NCBI GenBank assembly: GCA_021774435.1
Contig: JAJFJB010000415.1
Coordinates: 1-34,324, forward strand
Length of the DNA stretch: 34,324 nucleotides
Direction of reading: 5' to 3'
From: Alphaproteobacteria bacterium
GTDB lineage: Bacteria; Pseudomonadota; Alphaproteobacteria; UBA8366; GCA-2717185
Each line of letters opens with the position of its first letter. Position 1 is the stretch's first letter. Shown piece after piece: positions 1 through 31,406 of this stretch. The notes under the pieces are model-generated. The model saw only the letters and a program-made list of their open reading frames with translations. It made no database searches and was not told the origin of the DNA. Position numbers and translations under genes: made by a program.

Positions 1-92
1 GCTCGCGGTTCCGGTTGATCCGGCATTGAACAGCTGCTGCGCCAGTTGCGATTGGCTATGGAATTCGCCATTCGCATGCAATAGCATCTAAA

Positions 93-118
93 AATACAAT
101 GATAAAAAACACTGTATT
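93..118. promoter_or_regulatory. Inverted repeat upstream of PAS gene
   Basis: AATACA and TGTATT are exact reverse complements separated by 14 AT-rich bases, ending 12 bp before the ATG at 131. The spacing, about two helical turns centre to centre, would suit a dimeric regulator. No convincing promoter boxes or Shine-Dalgarno sequence is seen. The first 90 bases hold no gene that can be supported: short open stretches exist in both directions, but none has an end or a family signature. Confidence 0.25.
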
Positions 119-130
119 GAGTGAATACGC

Positions 131-928
131 ATGACGAGCAAGCGAGCCGATGCCAAAGCGCTGCTAAAGAACGTCCTGGAGACAGTGAACGAAGGTGTTG
201 TGATCTTCGACCCGGATGATCGGCTGGTTGTTTGCAATACGCGTTTTCGAGAAATCTATGCACCGATTGCGAAGCGTCTGATGCCTGGAACAAAATGCGA
301 GGACCTTTACCGCGCCTGGGGCGAACTCGGCTTGTTTGACCTAAGGCGAGGGACAATCGACGAACAAATTAAGGCGAGTCTCTATCGCCACAGAAATCCG
401 AATGGCCCATTCGAATTACATACGACCGAACGTTCGCTTCGGATCGAAGAACGGGTGACCGAGGATGGTTTTGTGATCGCAACGCATACCGATATTACGG
501 CGTGGAAACAGATGGAACGTGCCTTTCATGATTACGAAGGCCAACTCCCCGGCGCGGCGCGGCGACCGGCGGACAGGTTTTGGACGATGGACGCCAATCT
601 TCGGTTTACCACATTGGTCGACTATCCGAATTCTAGCATAATTGCCTCCCCAAACGCTTATATAGGTCACACGCGTTGGGAGGTCGTTGGGAGTGACCCC
701 AATTCCGACGACGCATGGCGTAAACATCGCGAGGACCTGTTGGCGCATCGGGCTTTTGAAAATTTTCGCTATTCTTCCGACGATGGGTTTGGCGGCGTTT
801 ATCATATGAGTGTTAGCGGAACGCCGGTTTTCGATGAAGATGGTGCATTTGCCGGCTATCACGGGACGACGACACGAATAAGCGACGCTGATGCCGATGC
901 CGATGATAAGGACGGTGTGGGTGAGTGA
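131..928 (+). CDS. PAS-domain protein without output domain
   Basis: This 265-residue soluble protein contains two PAS-like regions. The first spans about residues 10-130 and has the typical opening (EGVVIFDPDDRLVVCNTRFREIY) and closing (VIATHTDITAWKQME). The second spans about 140-250, with WTMDANLRFTTL and a PVFDEDGAFAGYHGTTTRI ending. PAS modules bind small ligands or cofactors and normally feed a kinase, GGDEF/EAL or DNA-binding domain. Here the chain stops after the second PAS, followed only by a low-complexity acidic tail (SDADADADDKD) encoded by a short GATGCC repeat. It could be a stand-alone sensor acting on a partner encoded elsewhere, or the remnant of a longer signalling protein. 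The start has no strong ribosome binding site. The methyltransferase gene follows after a 125-bp gap. Confidence 0.75.
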   Translation: MTSKRADAKALLKNVLETVNEGVVIFDPDDRLVVCNTRFREIYAPIAKRLMPGTKCEDLYRAWGELGLFDLRRGTIDEQIKASLYRHRNPNGPFELHTTERSLRIEERVTEDGFVIATHTDITAWKQMERAFHDYEGQLPGAARRPADRFWTMDANLRFTTLVDYPNSSIIASPNAYIGHTRWEVVGSDPNSDDAWRKHREDLLAHRAFENFRYSSDDGFGGVYHMSVSGTPVFDEDGAFAGYHGTTTRISDADADADDKDGVGE

Positions 929-3456: not shown

Positions 3457-4197
3457 ATGGCTGTCCAAGTTAATTTTGTCGGGTCGGGGGATGCTTTCGG
3501 CACGGGTGGCCGATACAACACATGCATCATGGTCGACGGATCGGACGTCCGATTCACGATCGACTTCGGGGCCTCGTCGCTGGTCGCGTTGAACAAGCAG
3601 GGCATTTTGCATAATTCGATCGATGCGATCCTGCTGACCCATATTCATGGTGACCATTCCGCTGGTATTCCTTTCATGCTGTTGGACGCAATGCTGGGCG
3701 CCAAACGTGACAGGCCGCTGACAATTGCTGGCCCAAAAAACCTGGAGGCCCGATTGGCGGAGGCTGCGGAAGTGCTGTTTCCGGGCATGAGTGAAATGAT
3801 CCCGAAATTTTTAATTGATTACGTTGAGCTCAAAGTAGGAGAGCCAAATCAGGTCTTGGGATTAACCGTTACCCCTTATGCCGCAAAGCATACGTGGCAA
3901 ACCGATCCAACAGCGTTGCGCGTCGATGTCGATGGTAAGACTGTCACTTATTCTGGAGACGGTGACTGGACACCTGATTTGCCGAAAGCAACCAAGAACG
4001 CCGACCTATTCATCGCTGAATGTTACTTTTATTCGAAGCCAGTGAAATGGCATCTCAACTATCACACCATCCAAGAACACAAGGAAGAGTTCGGCGCCAA
4101 GCGCATGATCCTTACCCATATGGGACCCGAGATGCTGGCAAAGGCGGACGAGGTCCCTGAGGAGTGCGCTGAGGATGGGCTCGTCATCACCTTGTAA
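3457..4197 (+). CDS. MBL-fold metallohydrolase
   Basis: The 246-residue cytoplasmic protein has the metallo-beta-lactamase fold of the RNase Z/phosphodiesterase-like branch. The zinc motif HIHGDH is at residues 62-67, with further likely ligands in AAKHTW, the TYSGDGDW strand and the C-terminal LTHMGPEM. It lacks the extra arm expected of true tRNase Z, so the substrate is unknown; phosphodiesters or thioesters are typical for relatives. GGAAGGA precedes the ATG by six bases. It is the first gene of an apparent operon: the GAPDH-like gene begins 44 bp downstream on the same strand and arsJ follows. An MBL protein is not an established part of the arsenate pathway, so a role there is only suggested by position. 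Confidence 0.8.
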   Translation: MAVQVNFVGSGDAFGTGGRYNTCIMVDGSDVRFTIDFGASSLVALNKQGILHNSIDAILLTHIHGDHSAGIPFMLLDAMLGAKRDRPLTIAGPKNLEARLAEAAEVLFPGMSEMIPKFLIDYVELKVGEPNQVLGLTVTPYAAKHTWQTDPTALRVDVDGKTVTYSGDGDWTPDLPKATKNADLFIAECYFYSKPVKWHLNYHTIQEHKEEFGAKRMILTHMGPEMLAKADEVPEECAEDGLVITL

Positions 4198-17051: not shown

Positions 17052-17669
17052 TTACGGTGCGACGCTGGAGAACGCTTCCGTGGCTTCGCAACGGGTAACG
17101 AAAGCGGCCAGGTCTGGGCACTTTTCAGCGAGGCCCAGCTTCGGGCGCGCCATGTTGGTGAAGGCGTAGGCAATGGCGCCGCTGACATCGGCCTGGCTGA
17201 TACGGTCGGTGCCTGCGAGCCAGCCGTCGCCGGCAGCCTTGGCGCAGTCATTGAGGAAACCGAGGCCGCCGCAGGCCTGCTCTTCATTGTGTTCAATCCA
17301 GGGACGATGGACCTTTTCCTTGGGATGGAAGCGGCCTTCGTAAACCGCCCAGATCGCTTTATCCATTGTGCCCGTTGCAACGGCGGTGAGTTTCATGACA
17401 TTCCGGCGTTCGGGCCCACTGGCCGGCATCAGTCGCTTGTCCGGCCCGGCCATTTCATCAAGGGTATCCAAAATCGCATAGCTCTCGACCAACGACTCGC
17501 CGTCATCGAGCACGACTGTCGGCACGCGAACCAGCGGATTGAATTTCCGCACCGCATCCTGATCGTCGAATACGGGGATGGGGTCGTGCTCGAACACCAT
17601 GCCCATCAGGTTCATACTGACCGCAACACGGCGGACATAGGGCGAACGGTAGGCACCAATCAGTTTCAT
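17052..17669 (-). CDS. Glutathione S-transferase family protein (copy 2)
   Basis: The 205-residue protein matches copy 1 almost motif for motif: MKLIGAYRSPYVRRVAVSMN, VRVPTVVLDDGESLVESYAIL, GTMDKAIWAVYEGRF and DRISQADVSGAIAY. The thioredoxin-like domain covers about 1-80 and the all-helical domain 90-200. It is the first gene of the likely GST-GST-desaturase operon, 28 bp from copy 1. The active-site position Ser9 (in RSPYVRR) suggests a serine- rather than tyrosine-type GST. Divergence at many positions shows that the duplication is not recent. Confidence 0.88.
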   Translation of the reverse strand: MKLIGAYRSPYVRRVAVSMNLMGMVFEHDPIPVFDDQDAVRKFNPLVRVPTVVLDDGESLVESYAILDTLDEMAGPDKRLMPASGPERRNVMKLTAVATGTMDKAIWAVYEGRFHPKEKVHRPWIEHNEEQACGGLGFLNDCAKAAGDGWLAGTDRISQADVSGAIAYAFTNMARPKLGLAEKCPDLAAFVTRCEATEAFSSVAP

Positions 17670-17739
17670 AGTTTCTTTGCTCCCAAATTCAGAATGAATC
17701 GATTACGCGCAGAGTGGCATGACAGCCGATAGCGTGGAA

Positions 17740-17764
17740 GTCTAAATCTCCGCTACAATTAGAC
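17740..17764. promoter_or_regulatory. Inverted repeat in divergent GST promoter region
   Basis: GTCTAA (17740-17745) and TTAGAC (17759-17764) are perfect arms with a 13-bp spacer, centred between the minus-strand GST operon and the plus-strand GST gene. A TACAAT -10-like box at 17754-17759 overlaps the right arm. A regulator bound here could control both GST units. Confidence 0.35.
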
Positions 17765-17789
17765 CCTAATCCTGATGAGGAGTTTTGCC

Positions 17790-18461
17790 ATGCTGACCAT
17801 ATGGGGCCGCCCGACCTCCGCTCGGACACAGAAGGTTCTCTGGGCACTTGCGGAAACGGGCATTGAGTTCGAATTGATCCTCGCCAGTGCGACAATGGGC
17901 CCGGACGGCAGTGTCGAGAATGGCAGCAAGCCTTACGGCATTGTCGATACGCCGGAATACCGTGCCATGAACCCGAACGGGACCGTGCCGACGATCAAGG
18001 ATAGCGACTTCAGCCTGTGGGAGTCGAACAGCATAATCCAGTATCTGGCGATGAAATATGCACCGGACTTGATGTATGGCGACGATCTGGAGACGTTCGC
18101 ATCGGCGAGCCGCTGGATGGATTGGGAAGGAAACGTCTTCCTGCCGCACCAACACACGCTGGTTATGAATTTGGTTCGACTACCGCCGGCAGAGCGAAAT
18201 CCGGATGCTGTTGAAAACGCGCGCCAAGCGTTGTTGGGGCCGTTGGGTATCATTGAAAATCAATTGGCGCGATCGCCTTTTATTGCCGGAGACCAATTCA
18301 CGATGGGAGACATTCCGGTCGGCATGCGCGTGCATCGCTGGTTCCTATTCGATCTCGAAACACCTGAGTTGCCGAACCTGCGTCGCTGGTATGATGTGAT
18401 CAGACAACGGCCCGCCTTCCTTCAACACATAGCCGATCCGGCATTGCATTTGTCTGGTTGA
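17790..18461 (+). CDS. Glutathione S-transferase family protein (third, distinct)
   Basis: The 223-residue protein has a GST N-terminal domain (LTIWGRPTSARTQKVLWALAETGIEFELI; NPNGTVPTIKDSDFSLWESNSIIQYLA) and a helical C-terminal domain (95-215) with DQFTMGDIPVGMRVHRW. It is clearly not a copy of the two minus-strand GSTs. An in-frame ATG at 17775 is possible, but GAGGAG seven bases before 17790 decides for the later start. The dehydrogenase gene follows after 23 bp, suggesting a two-gene operon. Confidence 0.88.
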   Translation: MLTIWGRPTSARTQKVLWALAETGIEFELILASATMGPDGSVENGSKPYGIVDTPEYRAMNPNGTVPTIKDSDFSLWESNSIIQYLAMKYAPDLMYGDDLETFASASRWMDWEGNVFLPHQHTLVMNLVRLPPAERNPDAVENARQALLGPLGIIENQLARSPFIAGDQFTMGDIPVGMRVHRWFLFDLETPELPNLRRWYDVIRQRPAFLQHIADPALHLSG

Positions 18462-26263: not shown

Positions 26264-27790
26264 CTACATTTGCGCCCAGGTTTGCCAGGGGACGAATTCA
26301 GTATCGCCGACGCCGATTTCCTCTGATTTGGTTAGGTCACCAGACGCGACGGCGAGTATTTTTTGGAAAATGTTCTCGCCAACGTCCTCCAAGCTCTCGG
26401 TTCCATCGACAACGGTGCCGCAATTGACATCCATGTCTTCCGCCATGTGGTTGAACATGGGCGTATTGGTGGCCAATTTTATGGAAGGCACGGGTTTGTT
26501 GCCGTAACAGGATCCACGGCCCGTCGTGAAGCAAACAAGATTACAGCCCGACGCGACTTCGCCCGTAATCGAACAGGGGTCGTATCCGGGACTATCCATG
26601 AAGGCGAAGCCCTTCGTGGTAATCGGTTCGCCATATTTGTAAACGCCGACCAAATTGGTGGAGCCTCCCTTGGCAACGGCGCCGAGCGATTTTTCGAGTA
26701 TTGTCGTCAATCCGCCTTCCTTGTTCCCCGGCGTTGGGTTGTTGTTCATGTTGCTGTTGTGTTTGGCGGCATAGTCTTCCCACCAATGAATGCGTTCGAT
26801 CAATTTTTCGCCGACGTCGCGAGAGACAGCGCGGCCCGTCAGCAAATGCTCGGCGCCGTAAATTTCCGGTGTCTCCGCCAACACGCCGGAACCGCCATGC
26901 CGCACCAGGGTGTCGACCGCAATGCCGAGTGCCGGATTGGCGGTGATCCCGGAATAGCCATCGGATCCGCCGCATTGCAGGCCGACGGTCAGCTCGGATG
27001 CGGGAACGGTTTCCCGTCGCATGGCATTGGCCCGCGGTAGGACGCTCTCGAACCATTCCACGCATTCTTCGACCGTCTTGCGGGTCCCACCTTCCGCCTG
27101 AAGGGTGGTGTAGTGAAAGGTTTCCTCCGACGGCTTACCCATCACATCGAGCATCAACGGGATCTGGTTTGCCTCACAGCCGAGGCCTAGCATCAGCATG
27201 GAGGCGAAATTAGCGTGCCGCGCATGGCCCCAGATGGTCCGCTGGAGCATGCGAAATGCTTCGTCGTCCGTGCCAATGCAGCAGCCCGCCCCATGTACGA
27301 TGGGGACAATCCCGTCCACATTGGGATAGTCGTCCAGGATACCGCGCTTTTCGATTTCCTTGGCGATGAGGCGTGCGGCTGTCGCGGAACAGTTCACCGA
27401 GGTGACGATACCGATGAAGTTGCGCGTGCCGACTTGTCCATCTTCGCGCCGAAAGCCTTGGAAGGTCGCCCGGTCCGCTTCTGGCACCATGTCGGTTGGC
27501 TGCGCGCGTTCGCCATAGGCGTAGTCGCGTTCGAAATCACCCATGGATACGTTGTGAACATGCACATGTTCTCCAGGCGCAATATGGGCGGAAGCGAACC
27601 CGATGATCTGGCCGTATTTGATGACCGGTTCGCCTTCCTTGATCGGGGCGACCGCGAGCTTGTGCCCACGTGGGATCGGTTCGCGTGCAGTGAGGCATAT
27701 CGTTTCGAGCGTCTCACCCTTGGCGATATTAGCAAGCACCATCGCCACATTGTCGGTTTCGCTCAGCTTGATCGATGTTGTTGCCGTCAT
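26264..27790 (-). CDS. UxaA/GarD-family sugar-acid dehydratase
   Basis: The 508-residue enzyme belongs to the altronate/galactarate dehydratase family, which removes water from hexonates or hexarates to give 2-keto-3-deoxy products. The N-terminal SAF domain (about 10-100: IPRGHKLAVAPIKEGEPVIKYGQIIG) is fused to the catalytic domain, with VPIVHGAGCCIG, LGLGCEANQI, CGGSDGYSGITANPALG and GRGSCYGNKPVPSIKLATN. Cysteines in these motifs fit iron binding. The full two-domain form is in one chain, like UxaA or GarD; which substrate it uses is open. AGAGGGAC precedes the ATG. It is divergent from marR and could share its operators. Confidence 0.88.
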   Translation of the reverse strand: MTATTSIKLSETDNVAMVLANIAKGETLETICLTAREPIPRGHKLAVAPIKEGEPVIKYGQIIGFASAHIAPGEHVHVHNVSMGDFERDYAYGERAQPTDMVPEADRATFQGFRREDGQVGTRNFIGIVTSVNCSATAARLIAKEIEKRGILDDYPNVDGIVPIVHGAGCCIGTDDEAFRMLQRTIWGHARHANFASMLMLGLGCEANQIPLMLDVMGKPSEETFHYTTLQAEGGTRKTVEECVEWFESVLPRANAMRRETVPASELTVGLQCGGSDGYSGITANPALGIAVDTLVRHGGSGVLAETPEIYGAEHLLTGRAVSRDVGEKLIERIHWWEDYAAKHNSNMNNNPTPGNKEGGLTTILEKSLGAVAKGGSTNLVGVYKYGEPITTKGFAFMDSPGYDPCSITGEVASGCNLVCFTTGRGSCYGNKPVPSIKLATNTPMFNHMAEDMDVNCGTVVDGTESLEDVGENIFQKILAVASGDLTKSEEIGVGDTEFVPWQTWAQM

Positions 27791-27918: not shown

Positions 27919-27961
27919 TTGACATAACGTGTATATGCACATAAAAGAGGGGATATACACG
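27919..27961 (+). promoter_or_regulatory. marR promoter with two operator copies
   Basis: A perfect TTGACA -35 box lies at 27919-27924, with a weak TAAAAG -10-like box 17 bp later. Within it lie GTGTATATGCAC (27929-27940, one mismatch to the palindrome at 28434) and GGGGATATACAC (27949-27960, two mismatches), with centres 20 bp apart. Together they give the outer dyad CGTGTATAT-N16-ATATACACG. Binding here would block RNA polymerase, which suggests autorepression by MarR. Confidence 0.6.
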
Positions 27962-27979
27962 TAAATTGAAAGCTAGAAA

Positions 27980-28408
27980 ATGCCCCATGATCCAGCAGAC
28001 TGCGCATGCATGAATCTTCGCAAGGCGGCCCGATTGATGGCGCAATTCTACGATCAGCAACTCCAACCGAGCGGCTTGCGGACCACGCAATTTTCATTGC
28101 TCGTTACCTTAAAGCGGCTTTCGCCGGTGCCCATATCGCGGCTTGCGGACCATATGGGAATGGATCGGACGACATTGACCCGGAATATTAGGCGGCTCGA
28201 AAAGGACGGATTGCTGCGAACACAGCCGGGAGAAGACGCGCGCGTCCGGTTGCTTGTTCTCACGGAAGAGGGGCGGCAAGCGATAGAGGCGGCGCAACCC
28301 TATTGGAATGGCGCACAGTCGGCGTTTCTAAAATCATTTGGCCAAGACCGCTGGTCGTCGCTTCATGGTGAGCTGAGCGATGTAAATCACGCTGTGGCCT
28401 CTCACTGA
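27980..28408 (+). CDS. MarR-family transcriptional regulator
   Basis: The 142-residue protein has the MarR winged helix-turn-helix: LRTTQFSLLVTLKRL, VPISRLADHMGMDRTTLTRNIRRLEKDGLLR, then the wing EDARVRLLVLTEEGRQAIEAA. It lies between divergent uxaA and the co-directional MBL hydrolase, 50 bp upstream of the latter. The recurring GTGTATATACAC motif before both marR and the hydrolase is the natural candidate operator. An N-terminal cysteine pair (DCACM) could allow redox sensing, but this is speculative. An in-frame ATG at 28010 is an alternative start. Confidence 0.88.
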   Translation: MPHDPADCACMNLRKAARLMAQFYDQQLQPSGLRTTQFSLLVTLKRLSPVPISRLADHMGMDRTTLTRNIRRLEKDGLLRTQPGEDARVRLLVLTEEGRQAIEAAQPYWNGAQSAFLKSFGQDRWSSLHGELSDVNHAVASH

Positions 28409-28415
28409 GAGGTCC

Positions 28416-28434
28416 CTTTATTTACCAAATAAGG
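28416..28434 (+). promoter_or_regulatory. AT-rich hairpin-capable dyad after marR
   Basis: TTATTT (28418-28423) and AAATAA (28427-28432) flank ACC, with a wobble and a C-G pair extending the stem. The dyad lies between the marR stop and the operator at 28434. It may be a weak processing or attenuation hairpin or an extra binding site; no T-run follows. Confidence 0.3.
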
Positions 28435-28445
28435 TGTATATACAC
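28434..28445. promoter_or_regulatory. MarR-type palindromic operator before MBL hydrolase
   Basis: GTGTATATACAC is a perfect 12-bp palindrome, 13 bp upstream of the hydrolase ATG. Near-identical copies occur in the marR promoter (27929-27940 and 27949-27960). Recurrence of the same palindrome at both target positions is strong internal evidence for a MarR operator. Confidence 0.65.
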
Positions 28446-28458
28446 TGAAAGGTGAGCT

Positions 28459-30489
28459 ATGAAATTCAAACTTTTATTTCCCTTTGCACCGATCGCCATT
28501 GTCTTCGCCGCACTGTCCGTTTCATTGGCCGATCGGCCTGCTACCAGTCCGGTACAGGTCTCGTCGTTGAAATCCGGCAAGCCGGCTGTGCAACAGACAG
28601 GTCGCGCGGGATTGGTCGATTCGCTTAAGCCGGCTGTCAGTTTCGAACCCTTCGCAATAAATAATCCAGACAAGGTTTATCGCAGCGACACCGAATTTTT
28701 AGAAACCGTTCTGTCCTACGGACGAAATGAAGACCCGCGCAATACGTTCGTTCTGGTCAATGCTTATCTCAATGCCAACCAACAGAAGGTTGGCATCGCA
28801 TTTTTCGAGCAATTGTTAAAACGCTACGGTGGCGACATGAGCAGTCAAGTCCGGGCAACCTACTTGGCCGCCTACGCGATCCTGCGCGCGACATACGCCG
28901 ACAGAGTGCCATTGCTGGACCGTGTCGGTTGGGTCCATGACACCTTTGATATTCTGGACGAAGCGGCACGGCTTGCGAAAGGCAGAAATGTTTTGGTGCG
29001 TTGGTCCGCGGGTATGATTTATGCGCAGGTCCCGTTCTTCTTCTTCAAAAGAGATGCCGCGTACGCGGAGCTCAACTGGCTTGCGGAACATCCCGAATCC
29101 GAGCCGACGATGGGCTTTTTCCGCGAGGTGTATCGCACGCTCGCCAGGCTGCATGCCGAGGACGGCAACACGGAAGAGGCGGGAAAGTTCGCGAAATTGA
29201 GCGGATACGGCACACGTGATCCACAGGCCATGTTTATGGGCTGGTTTACCGCCGAGAGTTCCGGCGCATCGATGGCGTCGACGCCGACGATGGAAGAGAT
29301 TGTGCCGGGCCGGGTGTTCGCATTCTACGGATACGGATTCTCCGACGTTTATTTCGTACTGTCCGACGATGGTGAAGAACTGATTGCGGTCGATGCCGGC
29401 ACGCAACCCCATAGCTTGAAGGCAGCGCATGACGACCTGAAAAACCGATTTCCGAATTTACCAAAGGTAACGGCTGCCATCGTGACGCATGCGCATTGGG
29501 ATCATATTGGCGGTCTTACTTATCTGAAATCGATCAGCCCAAATTTAAAAGTTTATGGCCGTGGAAACTTTAAGGGAACGCTCGGCCGTGCGCTTCGAAA
29601 ACACAGTTACCACCAGTATCGCGGAGACAATTTCAAGCGGGAATGGATCGAGTCCTACCGGCCCGATATCCCGGTTGATGTGCGCACCAGTATTTCCATC
29701 GGGGGCACAAAAATTGATTTGATACCGGTCGCCGGTGGCGAAACGGAAGATGCGCTGTTTGTCCACCTGCCCGGGTTGAAGACAATGTTCGTCGGTGACT
29801 TCCTGATGCCGTATTACGGCGAACCGTGGGTGGAGGAAGGTTTGATCGATGAAGCCATCGCGGCAATGGATACGGTAATCGCGGTTGATCCGAAATACAT
29901 TTTGCACGGTCATCGCCCGCTGACAATTCTCTATGCGCCAGAGCCGTTAAAACGGTTCCGGGACGATTTCAAGTGGCTCGTCGACGCCACGCGAACGCAT
30001 CTCAAGAATGGCTTTGCCGTCAGCGATATCGTGCGCCTGAATTTGATCCCGCCCGGCCTGCAAAATCGCCCCGATGCGTATATCTCCTATCTATCGCCGC
30101 GCGATCACATCATCGCGCGCGTCGGTGACAAGATGGTCGGCATTTGGCGTGAAGACATAACGGGCCAGGAACCCCGAGGCCTGGATACGCTGACCGCCGC
30201 CGACTACGGACGCTTCCTGGAGAACTATTTGCAGCTTTCGCCACGGGGTGTCGTGCTCGCACTGCGCCGGGCGATCGATGCCGGTGACAATGCGCTTGCC
30301 TTCAGTTTGGCAACGGCGGCTTTGAAGCGCTTTCCCAAGGAAGATGCAATCAAGCGTTTGCGTGCGGAGGCCGCGGACCGCCTGCGCAGTGCGGCACAAT
30401 TTTTCGATCCGTTCAAATTCATCGCCTACACGGAAATGGTCGGCAGTGAACACCGACCGATGCCGCGATCACAGGTTAATGAACGCTAG
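28459..30489 (+). CDS. Secreted MBL-fold hydrolase, alkylsulfatase-related
   Basis: The 676-residue protein starts with a signal peptide (MKFKLLFPFAPIAIVFAALS, cleaved near residue 24). Residues about 70-265 are an unrecognised helical, TPR-like region. The metallo-beta-lactamase domain follows (about 285-500), with HAHWDH at 344-349, a GGETED segment and HGHRP as likely zinc ligands; the glutamate-containing form recalls alkyl sulfatases of the SdsA/BDS1 group. Residues about 555-645 (RRAIDAGDNALAFSLATAALKRFPKEDAIKRLRAEAADRL) resemble their dimerisation domain. The SCP2-like C-terminal domain is missing. Substrates may be sulfate esters or other esters in the periplasm. A GTGTATATACAC operator and AAAGGTGAG precede the ATG; the gene is probably controlled by the upstream MarR. 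Confidence 0.78.
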   Translation: MKFKLLFPFAPIAIVFAALSVSLADRPATSPVQVSSLKSGKPAVQQTGRAGLVDSLKPAVSFEPFAINNPDKVYRSDTEFLETVLSYGRNEDPRNTFVLVNAYLNANQQKVGIAFFEQLLKRYGGDMSSQVRATYLAAYAILRATYADRVPLLDRVGWVHDTFDILDEAARLAKGRNVLVRWSAGMIYAQVPFFFFKRDAAYAELNWLAEHPESEPTMGFFREVYRTLARLHAEDGNTEEAGKFAKLSGYGTRDPQAMFMGWFTAESSGASMASTPTMEEIVPGRVFAFYGYGFSDVYFVLSDDGEELIAVDAGTQPHSLKAAHDDLKNRFPNLPKVTAAIVTHAHWDHIGGLTYLKSISPNLKVYGRGNFKGTLGRALRKHSYHQYRGDNFKREWIESYRPDIPVDVRTSISIGGTKIDLIPVAGGETEDALFVHLPGLKTMFVGDFLMPYYGEPWVEEGLIDEAIAAMDTVIAVDPKYILHGHRPLTILYAPEPLKRFRDDFKWLVDATRTHLKNGFAVSDIVRLNLIPPGLQNRPDAYISYLSPRDHIIARVGDKMVGIWREDITGQEPRGLDTLTAADYGRFLENYLQLSPRGVVLALRRAIDAGDNALAFSLATAALKRFPKEDAIKRLRAEAADRLRSAAQFFDPFKFIAYTEMVGSEHRPMPRSQVNER

Positions 30490-30503: not shown

Positions 30504-31406
30504 ATGCCTATCGGTATGTCGAGCAAGCAATGGGCCGTCCTGCTTCTCACAGCGGCGTTGTTCGGAAGCTCATTCTTTTTCATCAAGCTGGCGGTCGGCA
30601 GTATTCCGCCGCTGACTATTGCGGCGGGTAGAGCGCTGATTGCTGCGGTCGTGGTCTACGGCTTTTTGCGGTCGATGGGTTTGCGTTTTCCCGGGACGAT
30701 TAGTGGATGGACTCCATTGCTGATCCTGGGCGTTCTCACGGCCGCAATTCCCTATGCGGCGATTGCCTGGGGACAGGCACATATCGATAGCAGCCTTGGC
30801 GGCATTTTGTTTGCAACAATACCGGTTTTCAGTGTGCTCATCGGTCCATTATTGCTCGACGATGAGACATTTACCTTGCAGCGCCTGACAGGCGTGGCCA
30901 TCGGGTTCGCCGGTGTCGTCGTCATTATCGGTCCGACGGTATTGGCCGGACTTGGCACGCAGGTTGTCGGTGCCGCAGTAACGGTACTCGCCGCTTTGAG
31001 TTATGCCGCCGGCGGCATTTATGCACGCCGTCAACCTCAGTTGTCGCCTGTGTTGATGGCAGCCGGGCAGCTCGTTACCGCGTCTCTTCTGCTGATCCCA
31101 ATGGCACTGTTTGCCGATAGGATATGGCTTCTCGAGCCTTCGGATATTGCTGTCGGGAGCCTGCTTGTCGTCGCACTGTTCAGCACGGCGGTACCCGTCC
31201 TCTTACTCTTCTGGCTGGTGCGCAACGCGGGCGCGACCAATGCGTCGCTCTTGGCCTTCTTCATGCCGGTGGCTGCTGTGCTGCTCGGTGTCGGCGTGCT
31301 TGGCGAGCAATTGTCGTTAACCGCGGTCGCGGGCTTTGGACTGATTATCCTCGGCGCCGCGATCGTGACGGGTAACGTTACGCTGCGGAAACTGCGCCGC
31401 AACTAG
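30504..31406 (+). CDS. EamA (DMT) family transporter
   Basis: The 300-residue protein has ten membrane segments in two EamA repeats (about 8-140 and 150-295). The first begins WAVLLLTAALFGSSFFFIKLAVGSIPPL, and the second contains LAALSYAAGGIYARR. Such inner-membrane permeases move metabolites, often exporting amino acids. GGGGGAGGG precedes the ATG, and the gap to the MBL hydrolase is 14 bp, so it may be transcribed with it under MarR control. Confidence 0.88.
   Translation: MPIGMSSKQWAVLLLTAALFGSSFFFIKLAVGSIPPLTIAAGRALIAAVVVYGFLRSMGLRFPGTISGWTPLLILGVLTAAIPYAAIAWGQAHIDSSLGGILFATIPVFSVLIGPLLLDDETFTLQRLTGVAIGFAGVVVIIGPTVLAGLGTQVVGAAVTVLAALSYAAGGIYARRQPQLSPVLMAAGQLVTASLLLIPMALFADRIWLLEPSDIAVGSLLVVALFSTAVPVLLLFWLVRNAGATNASLLAFFMPVAAVLLGVGVLGEQLSLTAVAGFGLIILGAAIVTGNVTLRKLRRN

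Follow-up and report, generated by a model that had tools for sequence, protein, structure and literature searches.

We propose that the marR gene of the window, the 34,324-nucleotide stretch of alphaproteobacterial DNA analysed here, encodes a self-repressing thiol-switch repressor of the MosR type that controls a detoxification module, a model to which we assign a probability of roughly 70%. A MosR-type MarR dimer would bind G-TGTATATACA-C operators, occupying the -35/-10 spacer at marR and covering the start region just before the gene at mbl, which encodes an exported metallo-β-lactamase-fold hydrolase. In its reduced form MarR would shut off both promoters; oxidation or alkylation of Cys8/Cys10 would loosen it from the DNA, and its release would switch on marR itself, the exported hydrolase and an EamA exporter, a module that most likely would hydrolyse and expel a toxic compound. 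Sequence comparison shows the operators and how widely they are conserved among phyla, together with the cysteine pair and the layout of the operon; from there we infer that MarR binds and represses, that it senses through thiols, and that the module detoxifies.

What identifies the palindrome as an operator? The earlier note had described a perfect palindrome before the hydrolase gene, copies with one and two mismatches 20 bp apart in the marR promoter, and a perfect TTGACA box just before those copies, and each of these was borne out (Table 1). The start-to-start spacing of O1 and O2 corresponds to two helical turns, and O2 is a weak copy. O1 fills the spacer between the -35 element and the presumed -10 element, a placement that would block RNA polymerase; at the place equivalent to the presumed -10, locus L015 has TATTAT. 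In the window and in L012, L015, L016 and L017, the start of TTGACA or TTGACG precedes that of the operator by exactly 10 bp; other orthologs have a TTGACA-like box 19-30 bp ahead of it, and L012 and L015 also have paired operators, 19 and 21 bp apart. Shuffled versions of the window gave a mean of 0.25 palindrome matches, and none of 100 contained three.

Table 1. Features of the marR-mbl locus in the window, and operators of the MarR paralogs in the host genome.
Feature	Position	Strand	Sequence or product	Remarks
-35 element of marR promoter	27919..27924	+	TTGACA	From sequence; 4 bases ahead of O1
Operator O1	27929..27940	+	GTGTATATGCAC	1 mismatch to palindrome; marR-proximal site kept in orthologs
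Presumed -10 element	27942..27947	+	TAAAAG	Inferred from spacing only; 17-bp spacer
Operator O2	27949..27960	+	GGGGATATACAC	2 mismatches to palindrome; only one half-site intact
marR	27980..28408	+	MosR-like repressor, 142 aa	Pfam MarR, E 3.5e-12
Operator O3	28434..28445	+	GTGTATATACAC	Perfect 12-bp palindrome; ends 13 bp before mbl start codon
mbl	28459..30489	+	Exported metallo-β-lactamase-fold hydrolase, 676 aa	Pfam Lactamase_B, E 1.6e-16; orthologs 47-59% identical
eamA	30504..31406	+	Exporter	Pfam EamA, E 6.1e-41; presumed second gene of mbl operon
C352 (window) operator				Outer pair G/C
C116 operator (L005, L066; G000:C116)			ATGTATATACAT	Outer pair A/T; upstream of marR paralog
C206 operator (L006, L067; G000:C206)			CTGTATATACAG	Outer pair C/G; between marR and NmrA-family gene

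The earlier note had proposed a motif search of the genome. The exact 12-mer of O3 is present once in the 7.29 Mb genome and its 10-bp core exactly three times, each core adjoining one of the three closest MarR paralogs, all of a single subfamily. A reversed control pattern of the core occurs once. A few core copies could therefore be accidental, but chance does not explain why all three adjoin these genes, and judged on the sequence this coincidence alone is enough to link the motif with the MarR subfamily. A further site, GTGTATATCCAC at C346:14525, was dismissed as accidental: with one mismatch allowed, six matches to the reversed control stand against three sites. At the C116 locus, a divergent ccmC-like gene is preceded by ATGAATATACAT.

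The motif would have lost support had orthologous marR-hydrolase loci lacked it, and the outcome favours the motif. A scan with the hydrolase found 23 loci in Alphaproteobacteria, Gammaproteobacteria, Bacteroidota and one bin labelled Chloroflexi, most of them 49-60% identical; the gene is rare, and at E 1e-60 a phylum sample of 398 genomes yields 3 that have it. In the 250 bp ahead of mbl, 15 of 21 loci contain the core (0.23 expected), which ranks first there among all 1,024 ten-base palindromes. An O3-like placement is seen in most ortholog loci, the core ending 9-29 bp ahead of the mbl start codon in 10 of the 15. In L019, L021 and L031 the operator instead precedes the gene immediately upstream of mbl, and an adjacent marR, where present, carries its own operator copy. 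L018, L027 and L064 have no operator before mbl. An HxlR-type gene (L018:3385-3837) and a TetR-type gene (L064:731-1360) stand beside mbl in MarR's place, as in regulator turnover around a conserved target. Beyond the mbl loci, 84 of the 385 genomes sampled from the class contain relatives of the subfamily, and across 102 distinct related marR loci the core, within one mismatch, is near the gene in 55 (0.6 expected), while about half have no recognisable site. Since the marR-operator-hydrolase arrangement recurs in three bacterial phyla, with operators beside the regulator, the palindrome is very probably a genuine MarR operator. The Bacteroidota loci L019, L022, L023, L025, L029 and L031 have the marR-operator-mbl module with a T/A outer pair, and their hosts include species with sponge-derived names; these copies suggest an old transfer between phyla.

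The outermost base of the operator differs between paralogs, being G, A, C or T, and it covaries with residues 63-64 of the recognition helix, residue 63 having the highest z-score among 18 helix columns tested. Arg63-Thr64 goes with an outer G in 31 of 33 unambiguous cases, and other residues at these positions with a non-G base in 17 of 18 (Fisher p 2e-10, shared ancestry ignored): an outer A is seen with Gln, C with either Ala or Pro, T with Lys, and A as well as T with Arg-Ser. The Arg-Thr class is not uniform, as it includes two cases with a clear A and some sites that are mixed. Eight helix-class changes and 10 base changes were placed on a weakly supported tree, and one independent pair lies on well-supported branches, too few to give significance once phylogeny is taken into account. 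An outer-base specificity code is thus likely but unproven. On balance we lean slightly towards a MosR-like subfamily that would hold the core in common, its paralogs being kept apart by the outermost base pair as read by residues 63-64. A single genome could then operate its G, A and C circuits as three thiol switches without overlap, and the code would extend to Bacteroidota (T).

What would such a switch control? By inspection, the Mbl protein carries a signal peptide, and the ortholog alignment, likewise read by eye, shows lipobox-like cysteines in several sequences. Its structural model (mean pLDDT 75.9) best matches SdsA1, PisA1 and YjcS (Foldseek E about 1e-12, about 445 columns). Like these class III alkylsulfatases, it has the alkylsulfatase-like fold with an HxHxDH metal site and a glutamate (E428) where lactamases have the third histidine; H344, H346, D348, H349, E428, D447, H483 and H485 are invariant across the orthologs. 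It differs from them in being only 13-18% identical and in having an extra N-terminal helical domain. Pfam reported Lactamase_B families and TPR_19 only, with no alkylsulfatase dimerisation or C-terminal model, and the C-terminus follows soon after a dimerisation-like region, in which the alignment to YjcS is weak. A plasmid search with the hydrolase gave only weak matches (24-31% identity), and PADLOC found nothing. Mbl represents an unassigned alkylsulfatase-like family that occurs in at least three phyla. The eamA gene starts 14 bp past the mbl stop codon and has no operator of its own; the mbl-eamA adjacency recurs in L017, L034 and L064, and EamA genes lie beside mbl or a related marR in L012, L017, L034, L054 and L064. 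It is probably co-transcribed with mbl, and the predicted regulon would comprise marR together with mbl and eamA.

The MarR protein itself scores 46.4 bits against PF01047 (curated cut-off 24.6), its model has the MarR fold (pLDDT 89.8), and PADLOC gave winged-helix cross-matches only. The closest solved structure is Mycobacterium tuberculosis MosR (PDB 4fx0/4fx4, E 1.4e-26), the next solved relative being 14 orders of magnitude behind (E 2.6e-12); structural alignment with 4fx4 places residues 7..142 on 9..149 at 39% identity. The sole cysteines, in C8-A9-C10 at the N-terminus of helix 1, align with Cys10 and Cys12 of MosR, which form a reversible disulfide linked to MosR leaving DNA (PMC5823404, PMC11351531). 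Cys8 is one of 11 residues invariant in 13 orthologs from proteobacteria and Bacteroidota, and it is kept even in Bacteroidota orthologs at 20-25% identity; of the 102 relatives, 101 have Cys8 and 77 have C-x-C. The Bacteroidota orthologs retain only the first cysteine, so a C-x-C disulfide is not universal. The hallmarks of 2-Cys OhrR are a sensing cysteine, two conserved tyrosines and a resolving cysteine near the C-terminus (PMC5201249). Cys10 and Tyr24 of the window protein align with OhrR residues (in an alignment to the OhrR-like 5hlh), the position of the second tyrosine is Thr35, and a C-terminal cysteine is absent. Kinship to MosR, a cysteine pair that accounts for all cysteines, the invariance of Cys8 and the absence of OhrR features together make a thiol switch more likely than a carboxylate or phenolic ligand, and the trigger is probably oxidative or electrophilic stress rather than a small acid. 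The earlier note had suggested small carboxylates or phenolics as the signal, which is unlikely for a MosR-like protein that keeps this Cys-x-Cys oxidation sensor.

The same operator could nevertheless be read by a MarR of the classical ligand-binding kind, in which the cysteines are structural and a small molecule, such as a phenolic acid or the hydrolase's own substrate or product, triggers release. Most MarR proteins sense small ligands, a hydrolase together with an exporter is a typical substrate-induced pair, and the overall fold matches the ligand-binding HpaR and CouR about as well as MosR. We consider this unlikely, as the E-values among solved relatives single out MosR by the margin given above, the protein has no cysteines apart from the two that match the MosR redox pair, and Cys8 survives at such low identity. 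Control of sugar-acid catabolism through O1/O2, with a uronate-type acid as signal, is very improbable. The uxaA dehydratase gene is divergent from marR across a common 189-bp intergenic region, and it adjoins the marR-mbl locus in L021 as well. It has its own promoter-proximal stretch, TTGACGGAATTCG..., which is conserved in L021 with no operator before the gene, and uxaA orthologs in the same genus and family have neither operator nor marR-mbl. We therefore rejected uxaA as a target, and it probably lies outside the regulon; of the regulon predicted in the earlier note, marR autoregulation, the hydrolase target and EamA through co-transcription stand, and uxaA does not.

That the palindromes are an AT-rich promoter feature, near marR by accident and read by another regulator or by none, is scarcely credible. 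Their alternating TATATA does look like promoter sequence, no MarR gene was found beside mbl in the site-bearing loci L012, L013, L015, L020 and L024, and L018 and L064 have other regulators in MarR's place. Against this, the exact cores of the genome coincide with MarR paralogs, sites recur at more than half of the related marR loci, and the flanking base covaries with the recognition helix.

The fold, redox logic and autoregulated layout of the proposed thiol switch are already known from MosR, OhrR and EstR. MosR (Rv1049) likewise has its C-x-C pair where helix 1 begins, the two recognition helices compare as ERTTLTRN against DRTTLTRN, and the enzyme that MosR represses is exported and serves in defence against oxidative stress (PMC5823404, PMC11351531). 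Its target is a short-chain oxidoreductase, whereas the predicted target here is a metallo-hydrolase. Among the best 14 first-look candidates per genome in 296 actinomycete genomes there was no MosR relative at E 1e-15, a result that shows little. The EstR-EstC system of Agrobacterium tumefaciens, in which a cysteine-sensing MarR repressor adjoins a hydrolase gene and induction is by organic hydroperoxide, is similar in having the hydrolase beside the MarR gene and two operators over two promoters, with an SDR gene nearby (PMC5201249). It differs in its operator, GTTATCGCGATAAC, in the OhrR-type sensing Cys16 and extra Cys114 near the C-terminus of EstR, and in EstC being an α/β hydrolase (PMC5201249). 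In the SCO3205-DNA complex of Streptomyces coelicolor, few recognition-helix residues read bases, and Arg72 lies at the outer edge of the half-site (PMC3737563). The SCO3205 operator is different (PMC3737563), and judged by pattern alignment only, the Arg72 contact falls one base pair outside the variable pair described here. In a partial literature search we found no description of the operator, the cross-phylum marR-operator-hydrolase module or the outer-base rule, and no MarR paper with the operator strings; an earlier description is possible. For this uncharacterised MarR subfamily we predict an operator, regard a thiol signal as likely and offer a rule against crosstalk between paralogs that can be put to the test. 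M. tuberculosis MosR is linked to a broad proteobacterial group and would be predicted to read a G-type operator.

The surroundings of these loci vary. The uxaA genes of the window (26264-27790) and of L021 (6197-7726) are 93% identical, and a marR-mbl locus adjoins both; its orientation relative to uxaA differs, and marR and mbl are only about 53% identical, which hints that the cassette was repeatedly inserted or replaced near uxaA. Other neighbours are glutathione S-transferase genes in L013 and L015, SDR genes in L023 and L029, an α/β hydrolase gene in L022 and the NmrA-family gene at the C206 paralog, a set that would fit a role in stress or detoxification. Two glutathione S-transferase-like ORFs, recognised by eye, lie about 10 kb from the locus in the window (17052-18461) with no operator near them; in other genomes such genes adjoin mbl. 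In L013 and L015 mbl and a glutathione S-transferase gene diverge from a common interval that contains operators, and in L015, which has no adjacent marR, this interval (3795-3995) holds two near mirror-image promoters, each strand bearing TTGACGTAAAG followed by the operator.
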